Source of the DNA: Sphingorhabdus sp. SMR4y
GTDB taxonomy: Bacteria; Pseudomonadota; Alphaproteobacteria; Sphingomonadales; Sphingomonadaceae
Direction of reading: 5' to 3'
Assembly (NCBI RefSeq): GCF_002218195.1
Contig: NZ_CP022336.1
Location: 1,793,001 to 1,857,000, forward strand
DNA: 64,000 bases
Positions 54,032 to 55,087 of this stretch are shown in pieces; position 1 is the first letter of the stretch, and the number at the start of each line of letters is the position of its first letter. The position numbers were made by a program, and so were the translations under genes. The notes beneath the pieces were generated by a model. The model was given only the letters and a program-made list of their open reading frames with translations, did no database searches and was not told the origin of the DNA.

Positions 54032-54673
54032 ATGATACAGGGTCGTGCGGGTTCGGACTTTGATAGCAATATCCAAACAAGGACGGTTGCGCCTGAGGCC
54101 GCAAATCCGATAAGGCCGATTGACGATATCATTGATAAGCTTTGGGATGATAGATTGAGGCAATCGGATAACGATAGCAAACAAATGGATGCAGCGAGCA
54201 CGCTTTGTACATCCTGCGGCCTCTGTTGCGACGGCAGCTTGTTCAGCATCGCGCCATTGGTCCCTGAAGATGGCGCTGTTGTGCCTCCGTTGCGCTCGCA
54301 TGAAGATGGCGATGAACGCTATCTTTCGCTTCCCTGTCCGGCACTGGACAGCGCGAGATGTTGTACAGTCTATGGCAATCGCCCCAGGATTTGCGGTGCT
54401 TTTCGCTGCGCTTTGCTGGACCGGCTGGATGGTGGAAAAATCTCTTTGCAGGAAGCAATGCGAAAAGTTGCCGTGGCTCGACAACATAAATCAAGGACGC
54501 TCGCGGTGGTCGGCCAGTTTGTCGACACCGATGGCCGGGGCATGAAAGATATCAAACGAAGCTACGGGAACTTGAGTTCAGAGGACCGGACCCGCGATAT
54601 GCGATCCTATAGAGAAGGAGAGTTTTTGCTAAAAGCCTTTGGTCACTACCTAAAGAAACATTTTTTCCAATAA
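54032..54673 (+). CDS. YkgJ-type cysteine-cluster protein
   Basis: 213 residues from ATG at 54032 (GGAG upstream). Cys cluster CTSCGLCCDGSLF at about 59-65, then PCPALDSARCC, YGNRPRICGAFRC, giving the CxxCxxCC...CP...C pattern of the YkgJ/UPF0153 family, thought to bind zinc or an iron-sulfur cluster. The N-terminal 50 residues are extra and polar. Converges on the small peptide gene at 54838. Function unknown; the chemical partner may be that peptide, but this is speculation. Confidence 0.8.
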   Translation: MIQGRAGSDFDSNIQTRTVAPEAANPIRPIDDIIDKLWDDRLRQSDNDSKQMDAASTLCTSCGLCCDGSLFSIAPLVPEDGAVVPPLRSHEDGDERYLSLPCPALDSARCCTVYGNRPRICGAFRCALLDRLDGGKISLQEAMRKVAVARQHKSRTLAVVGQFVDTDGRGMKDIKRSYGNLSSEDRTRDMRSYREGEFLLKAFGHYLKKHFFQ

Positions 54674-54837
54674 TTTAGCGAGCAGGCGAAACCTTCCGAT
54701 AACATCATAGCAACCGGACCAGCCAGCAAACAAAAAACATGTCTGCTTGCTGATAGGGAAAGAATTGCGCGGGAGCCACAATTTCAAAGCTATTAAAGTA
54801 GAGCTGTCAGAGCGGCTCTAATATCAGTCCTTGAAGT
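54674..54837. other. Convergent intergenic region
   Basis: No gene. The pair CAGCAA/TTGCTG around CAAACAAAAAACATG (near 54722-54750) may be a weak hairpin ending either convergent transcript. Confidence 0.3.
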
Positions 54838-54981
54838 TTATGATGCCCCAACCAAGGTTCCGGCCTCTATCCCCACACTCTTTTTACCCTCAGTATAATC
54901 TTCCAAAACAATCTCGGTCAGCTCGGGCTTTTCGTAAATTCGTTTGGCCGGTGTCGCTTCTGATTTGTTGCTCGTTTTCAT
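54838..54981 (-). CDS. Candidate lasso-type RiPP precursor peptide
   Basis: 47 codons starting MKTSNKSEATPAKRIYEKPE. Residues 16-21 read YEKPEL, the YxxPxL motif of lasso leader peptides; Thr30 is the next-to-last leader residue and is followed by Gly32. The putative core GKKSVGIEAGTLVGAS has Glu at position 8, suited to an eight-residue Gly1-Glu8 ring. No Cys. A ribosome-binding site (AAAGG) and promoter (55029-55055) lie upstream. No lasso protease, RRE or cyclase gene lies within the window, so the call rests on precursor features alone; it could be an unrelated small protein. Confidence 0.5.
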   Translation of the reverse strand: MKTSNKSEATPAKRIYEKPELTEIVLEDYTEGKKSVGIEAGTLVGAS

Positions 54982-55028
54982 GGTCTGCCTTTCGATAAGC
55001 ATCGCGATTACTTCGCGAAGGCCAATAA

Positions 55029-55055
55029 AGTATACAGCTGGCGCACGCCGGTCAA
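55029..55055 (-). promoter_or_regulatory. Probable promoter of precursor peptide
   Basis: On the minus strand, -35 TTGACC (55055-55050) and -10 TATACT (55034-55029) with a 15-base spacer, or TACTTT with 17. The leader would be about 40 bases and contains the palindrome CTTCGCGAAG. Confidence 0.45.
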
Positions 55056-55087
55056 GATGATCTGTTCAAGCAGGCCACAGATCATCT
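55055..55087 (-). terminator. Hairpin after Rieske gene
   Basis: Perfect 11-base stem AGATGATCTGT/ACAGATCATCT with an 11-base loop, 62 bases after the Rieske stop. No T run follows, so it may be a terminator stem or an operator next to the peptide promoter. Confidence 0.45.

Follow-up and report, generated by a model that had tools for sequence, protein, structure and literature searches.

Introduction

Lasso precursors, split RRE/B2 proteins and lasso kinases are already known. A review describes proteobacterial lasso kinases, one of them from Sphingobium yanoikuyae, that phosphorylate a C-terminal Ser (PMC8498205). Phosphorylated proteobacterial lasso peptides (Sphingobium yanoikuyae; paeninodin-like) resemble the system described here in the HprK-like kinase encoded in the genome, the C-terminal Ser, and the discrete RRE and B2 proteins (PMC8498205, PMC10368454); Sphingorhabdus sp. 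SMR4y differs from them in its scattered precursors, a maturase set without a precursor match, a YkgJ-type neighbour, and Lys2. The Bradymonas bsf lasso peptide likewise combines a kinase and an RRE with a YxxPxL leader and a residue other than Thr at position −2, but its genes are clustered and it is phosphorylated at Ser3 (PMC10368454). Linear polyphosphorylated peptides (LPPs) share the [Y/W]xxP leader, the discrete RRE and the HprK-like kinase, yet are described as lacking a macrolactam, using an SpI-like leader peptidase and occurring mainly in Bacillota (PMC13381572). Prochlorosins provide a parallel of another kind, many precursors served by one promiscuous enzyme (ProcM), although they are Nif11-family lanthipeptides and not lasso peptides (PMC10783134).

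Here we analyze a 47-codon gene of SMR4y that an earlier note, made from the sequence alone, had read as an orphan lasso-like precursor. We propose, with a probability of about 0.7, that it encodes a lasso precursor without adjacent maturation genes that would be matured in trans, the neighboring YkgJ-type protein being an optional accessory.

Results and discussion

A predicted lasso precursor gene converges on a YkgJ-type gene

The window is the whole 64,000-nt stretch of SMR4y DNA that was analyzed. Its relevant features are:

54032–54673, plus strand: YkgJ-type CxxCxxCC protein of 213 aa (PF03692 at 31.6 bits, cut-off 23; eight invariant Cys)
54838–54981, minus strand: lasso-type precursor gene, 47 codons plus stop (ORF, paralogues, syntenic orthologue)
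54889–54981, minus strand: leader, residues 1–31, with Thr-Glu at its end (alignment; leader and core dN)
54919–54936, minus strand: YEKPEL, predicted RRE-binding motif of the YxxPx[LIV] type (sequence; Tyr/Trp-x-Lys-Pro in 10/10 SMR4y precursors)
54841–54888, minus strand: core GKKSVGIEAGTLVGAS, with a predicted Gly1-Glu8 lactam and a C-terminal Ser (pattern in 13/13 profile-found precursors)
54987–54993, minus strand: GAAAGGC, ribosome-binding-site-like (conserved in the orthologue)
55029–55055, minus strand: TTGACC-N15-TATACT, promoter-like (both hexamers largely kept in the orthologue)
55055–55087, no strand assigned: 11-nt perfect hairpin, probably incidental (inverted repeat; missing from the orthologue)

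The ORF extends on the minus strand from an ATG at 54981 to a stop at 54838 and encodes a 47-aa peptide, MKTSNKSEATPAKRIYEKPELTEIVLEDYTEGKKSVGIEAGTLVGAS. Each element that the earlier note had named is present in the translation: YEKPEL, Thr at −2, Gly as residue 32 (core position 1), and Glu as residue 39 (core position 8); the last residue is Ser. Starting from another in-frame ATG, at 55002, the product would be 54 aa long; the orthologue in Sphingorhabdus sp. 109, the nearest named relative among the genomes compared, matches the 47-aa start, with GTG in the same position and GAAAGGC conserved just upstream. Among 539 short ORFs (30–90 aa) in the window, the 47-codon gene alone fits a lasso-like pattern whose design took this very gene into account. 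Scans against Pfam and NCBIfam gave no match for the 47-aa peptide. The convergence on a YkgJ-type gene also holds: the PF03692 neighbor lies tail-to-tail with the precursor gene, 164 nt away.

Two of the upstream elements stand only in part. A promoter of the gene's own, as the earlier note had it, is plausible from the sequence; a sigma-70 scan with spacers of 16–18 found none upstream of the precursor, but the TTGACC-N15-TATACT element (55055 to 55029 on the minus strand) has an aligned counterpart, TTGACT-N15-TATAAG, upstream of the orthologue, so that the two species share a TTGAC-N15-TATA element. The 11-base hairpin is indeed perfect (arms 55055–55065 and 55077–55087, 11/11 paired) but probably incidental, since short-loop inverted repeats as long and as perfect as this one are found at three places in the 64-kb window (8 overlapping matches) and the arms are absent from the Sphingorhabdus sp. 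109 orthologue.

Precursors of the same kind are scattered through the genome

The SMR4y genome is a single contig (C1) of 3,479,724 bases, rated 100% complete. A search with the window peptide alone found five further places (E 1e-4 to 0.7), a six-sequence profile nine places at E <= 0.001, and an eleven-sequence profile eleven places at E <= 0.1, the new ones being a precursor inside a cluster at 1.766 Mb and one odd relative. These comparisons demonstrate a family of predicted precursors, ten of them of the window-gene kind in SMR4y, at C1 positions 1,564,000; 1,573,095; 1,764,440; 1,768,382; 1,847,841 (the window gene); 1,969,321; 2,777,996; and, as a tandem trio, 2,809,357–2,810,430. For eight of the ten, the nearest RRE, B2 or cyclase match is more than 10 kb away. 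The upstream sequences of the tandem trio (L008) are partly similar, a sign of duplication. Upstream of 15 precursor or precursor-like genes, the only shared sequence of at least eight bases was one 8-mer, found in four of them, and a common regulatory motif was dropped.

Together with three precursors from Sphingorhabdus sp. 109, the ten form a set of 13. All carry Tyr/Trp-x-Lys-Pro, a Gly-Lys 15–17 positions past the Tyr/Trp, and a final Ser; counted from Gly1, an acidic residue occupies position 8 in five and position 9 in the other eight. The constancy of Gly-Lys is partly by construction, because this pair was part of the search profile and was used for setting the core start; that of the acid, its spacing and the final Ser is less so. 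The homologues thus keep Gly1 and the acid as the rest of the core varies; a leader retained with loss of Gly32 and Glu39, the pattern that would have spoken against the original reading, is not what the family displays. Thr at −2, which had been taken as a lasso requirement, is present in the window gene but is not strict: the 13 precursors have Thr (8), Ala (2), Val (2) or Ser (1) there, and lasso precursors with Ile or Val at −2, also from Sphingomonadales, appear in a published study (PMC10368454).

The family is narrow. At E <= 0.001 it was found in two of 298 host-family genomes, SMR4y and G002, and all five same-genus genomes sampled lacked both a precursor (E <= 0.001) and a B2 (E <= 1e-6). 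The odd relative (L177:1486-1614, at about 3,100,950 on C1 of SMR4y; L174:1450-1578 in Sphingorhabdus sp. 109) has a YxKPEL leader, no Gly1 and no ring acid; both species have the same C-terminal part, KPELIQLSEIHEKTDALLTSLFRAS, in contrast to the variable cores of the other precursors.

A lasso maturase set is present and isolated

The earlier note had pointed to a search of the genome for lasso maturases, and RRE, B2 and cyclase are all there. One Transglut_core3 match (PF13471, 8.1e-19) represents the B2 transglutaminase-type protease, and three PqqD-like RREs score above cut-off. There are six Asn_synthase matches: two lasso-like cyclases, three weak and short ones, and the strongest (1.1e-103), presumed to be a housekeeping enzyme. 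A single lasso set combines all three activities:

C1:1,718,329–1,721,183: RRE, B2 and cyclase genes, about 127 kb from the window gene

Its RRE matches NF033536, the NCBIfam lasso PqqD model, with 85.5 bits against a cut-off of 80. Its cyclase contains PF00733 and GATase_7 matches and SGGIDS in the translation, and scores 239.7 bits with the lasso-cyclase model, under the curated cut-off of 525. The neighbors are a sulfotransferase gene, an ATP-grasp gene and the gene of an HprK-like kinase that exceeds the PF07475 cut-off. Profile searches to E 0.1 found no precursor in this set; the window gene, about 127 kb apart, is not clustered with the maturases. The ATP-grasp gene (PF14397; L023:9102-10463) and the ORF of the lasso cyclase overlap, and BLAST with the former had no match in 60 other B2 loci.

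Two further clusters are partial. That at 0.33 Mb (L024:8653-18413) has its own RRE, cyclase and WGTPEL precursor and no B2; its other genes encode a 2OG-Fe(II) oxygenase, a GT8 protein and two each of sulfotransferases and PF05118 hydroxylases, and its kinases comprise one weak match and a second kinase-like protein without a Pfam match. The cluster at 1.763–1.768 Mb contains an RRE, a kinase-like gene that scores under every curated cut-off, a sulfotransferase, a PF05118 hydroxylase, a GT8 gene, a WEKPKL precursor, and a second pair of YkgJ and precursor genes; no cyclase match and no B2 match were found in it. Of all these kinases, that of the 1.72-Mb cluster alone exceeds Pfam's HPr-kinase cut-off, and no kinase adjoins the window gene.

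Relatives place window-type precursors beside lasso cyclases

In G002 a gap of 16 nt separates a lasso-type cyclase gene (L042) from a homologous precursor (E 2.5e-4; YRKPEL; core GPATFTQEVLIYYTPPS, which lacks Lys2), in a run that also holds B2, RRE, sulfotransferase and kinase genes. Two genomes of the same genus as G002 (G096 and G158) have the same gene set with similar precursors. Against a comparison set made up of 60 B2 regions, two YkgJ-linked loci and L106, the SMR4y 1.72-Mb cyclase matches best the cyclases of these three clusters, with scores of 313, 280 and 264 bits against 124 for the fourth; the same clusters are among the best five for the SMR4y B2, and the RRE does not single them out. 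Since each of the three nearest cyclases stands beside a related precursor, the in-cis precursor of the nearest cyclases is of the window-gene type.

Sphingorhabdus sp. 109 has the same YkgJ/precursor pair between the same neighbors. The YkgJ proteins are 82% identical; in the precursor, YEKPEL and EIVLEDYTEGKK are identical and the core is changed to GKKAITVVETLTLGAAS. This genome encodes two more precursors, the odd relative, and a single B2 that lies about 96 kb from the syntenic pair, accompanied by a cyclase and by an RRE 87% identical to that of SMR4y; the closest kinase, with 84% identity, is encoded at a different place on that contig. Between the two species dN is 0.21 for the leader, 0.52 for the core, 0.11 for YkgJ and 0.03 for a flanking hydrolase, and dN/dS of YkgJ is 0.27. 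Synonymous sites of the precursor are saturated, compared with dS of ~0.4 in flanking genes, so the window precursor may have been replaced by another allele.

The same saturation, and the distance of more than 10 kb that separates eight of the ten precursors from any RRE, cyclase or B2 match, could be expected if the scattered genes were silent relics of decayed lasso clusters. We consider this very improbable: leader motif, start, ribosome-binding site, Gly1, acid and final Ser are all kept in two species, and one intact maturase set is without a precursor match of its own.

A linear product is a second alternative, in which the peptide, recruited by an RRE, would gain phosphate or sulfate groups without ever being cyclized, like LPPs. 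The cluster at 1.766 Mb fits such a pathway, having an RRE, modifying enzymes and a YkgJ pair yet no cyclase or B2 match, and LPP and lasso clusters have [Y/W]xxP leaders, RREs and kinases in common (PMC13381572). A linear peptide would, however, have no need of Gly1 and an acid at position 8 or 9, which recur in 13/13 otherwise variable cores. The window leader also does not match the LPP motif YxxPxVLxHQxIxFET given in that study, lacking YxxPxVLxHQ, and a homologue adjoins a lasso-type cyclase. These observations make a linear product improbable.

Processing in trans, by contrast, appears highly probable from the gene content. Comparative genomics supports the first suggestion of the earlier note, a stand-alone precursor matured by distant enzymes: the maturases are present in the genome, a homologue lies beside a lasso-type cyclase (L042) and others beside YkgJ, and Gly1 and the acid are kept. 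In the pathway that we envisage, the stand-alone RRE of the ~1.72-Mb set would bind YEKPEL, B2 would cut after Thr-Glu, and the cyclase would join Gly1 to Glu8; the HprK-like kinase of the same cluster may then phosphorylate the C-terminal Ser16. Both the ring and the phosphorylation of the window core are predictions from sequence. The genome also encodes an RRE with a cyclase at 0.33 Mb and a further RRE at 1.766 Mb, so we only infer that the 1.72-Mb RRE would be the one to read YEKP. One set could serve about ten precursors in a manner reminiscent of prochlorosins.

Lasso genome mining usually searches beside maturases, so precursors processed in trans are missed; here this would apply to 8/10. 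A naturally promiscuous lasso set, if this is what SMR4y has, would be a tool for lasso libraries. Among the matches listed, judged by their titles and the beginnings of their abstracts, we found no precursor-less maturase set serving scattered lasso precursors.

YkgJ is a rare but recurrent neighbor of lasso genes

SMR4y encodes only two YkgJ proteins of this kind (E <= 1e-12), 46% identical to each other, and both are paired convergently with a precursor, in the window and in the 1.766-Mb cluster. The question raised earlier, whether the YkgJ gene stays beside homologues of the peptide, therefore has a divided answer: the second SMR4y pair and the sister pair speak for it, and 8/10 SMR4y precursors have no adjacent YkgJ of this kind.

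A pattern-based scan of the genome collection with both SMR4y YkgJ proteins yielded 12 loci, the sister included. In a Sphingomonas MAG (L052), YkgJ is followed by an RRE, next to a cyclase, a precursor, a kinase-like gene and B2; in a Myxococcales MAG (L059), its neighbors are an RRE, a cyclase, a precursor and a kinase-like gene, and B2 adjoins them. At L100, YkgJ is accompanied by RRE, B2, cyclase, precursor and kinase-like genes, and at L095 by a cyclase and a candidate precursor, no RRE or B2 being found nearby; these are the two of 14 host-family YkgJ loci outside SMR4y that adjoin lasso genes. Among 18 further YkgJ regions, 17 have no lasso gene and one (L218) has an RRE only. There (L218:9365-10128, G494) YkgJ is directly followed by the RRE-like protein, no other lasso gene was found nearby, and the B2 of the genome is elsewhere.

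Across all 42 other loci (14 + 18 + 10, counted without the sister or the L092 duplicate), YkgJ stands beside a cyclase at four (L052, L059, L095, L100) and 37 are without a lasso gene. Four compares with ~0.3 expected under a rough model that ignores relatedness (0.8% per locus, P 0.0004), several flanks ending at contig ends. From the other side, BLAST at 1e-4 found YkgJ within ~10 kb of none of 60 sampled B2 loci, a non-random sample taken among the matches listed, mainly from few-contig genomes; a loose Cys pattern matched short ORFs in 5/60 of these regions. The lasso-linked YkgJ proteins do not form one clade (five changes on the tree; 62/500 shuffles as low). The absence from B2 loci and the lack of a single clade mark YkgJ as a rare neighbor and not a core maturase, probably acquired repeatedly judging from these sequences. 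In the host family, B2 occurs in 10/12 genomes with YkgJ vs 129/298 overall (P 0.005); in a second set it accompanies YkgJ in 5/6 host-family genomes and in 1/9 from other families, and the co-occurrence is given no weight because of the latter figure.

That the two genes are accidental neighbors, YkgJ being unrelated to the peptide and both duplicated together as a segment, is a possibility to be taken seriously, though with the odds against it. They lie tail-to-tail and form no operon, 0/60 B2 loci have YkgJ, and 37/42 other YkgJ loci lack a lasso gene. Chance does not readily account for a pairing at two SMR4y places with YkgJ proteins only 46% identical, and again in the sister, for a cyclase neighbor at 4/42 loci vs ~0.3 expected under the rough model, or for the RRE directly after YkgJ in L052 and L218.

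The second suggestion of the earlier note, a new maturation scheme using the Cys-cluster protein, finds no support in these loci if YkgJ is taken to replace lasso enzymes: YkgJ occurs alongside full RRE/B2/cyclase sets (L052, L059, L100) and is missing beside 8/10 SMR4y precursors. From this distribution it looks like an optional accessory, neither a core maturase nor a replacement for one.

Possible chemistry of YkgJ

We propose that YkgJ would tailor the window precursor or assist in its maturation, most likely by modifying a core lysine. FliB contains a [4Fe-4S] cluster and eight conserved Cys and methylates lysines, and its authors liken its N-terminal Cys cluster to PF03692; FliB differs from YkgJ in its CX4CX3CC spacing and in its substrate, flagellin (PMC8598068). 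In an alignment of 12 YkgJ proteins, all eight Cys are invariant, with CX2CX2CC spacing vs CX4CX3CC in FliB. FliB is a longer protein than YkgJ. Sequence comparison of YkgJ with the PDB gave a best E of 0.23, which is not significant; an AlphaFold model was poor (pLDDT 65), and Foldseek found no match for it at E up to 0.001. Proteins of the YkgJ/CxxCxxCC family are found widely, and apart from FliB none is known to have a defined role.

The cores provide a hint. In a small, post hoc comparison, Lys is present within the last 16–20 residues in 5/5 YkgJ-linked lineages vs 3/18 unlinked precursors (p 0.0017). The 32 rows behind this test included two YkgJ-linked precursors; visual inspection retained 17 others as unlinked precursors and discarded 13 as spurious ORFs, and the SMR4y cluster-2 precursor brought the unlinked ones to 18. 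The p value becomes 0.036 if ten window-family precursors without adjacent YkgJ, all with Lys2, count as unlinked. By analogy, an iron-sulfur protein that modifies a core lysine, by FliB-like [4Fe-4S] lysine methylation, is the role that we favor, and we do so tentatively.

YkgJ might instead donate metal or electrons to another tailoring enzyme, such as a PF05118 hydroxylase, without modifying the peptide itself. The annotation of PF03692 goes no further than a putative Zn/Fe-chelating domain, and the 1.766-Mb cluster does contain a PF05118 hydroxylase; BLAST with the SMR4y hydroxylases (E <= 1e-4), however, found none near YkgJ in L052, L059, L095 or L100, which leaves the donor role rather doubtful. 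A broader picture joins a genome-wide lasso system, with one precursor-less set and about ten scattered, fast-diversifying precursors, to YkgJ proteins as new lasso-tailoring [4Fe-4S] N-methylases of core lysines in unrelated phyla; taken as a whole, we regard it as unlikely. Among the papers searched, none joined YkgJ with lasso peptides or RiPPs and none joined lasso peptides with a cysteine cluster protein; the lysine-methylation papers among the matches listed were without a lasso peptide. The recurrent place of YkgJ beside lasso genes offers a small candidate substrate with which a YkgJ function is directly testable. At one other locus, L219:9425-11182 (G410), three YkgJ-type genes stand in tandem.
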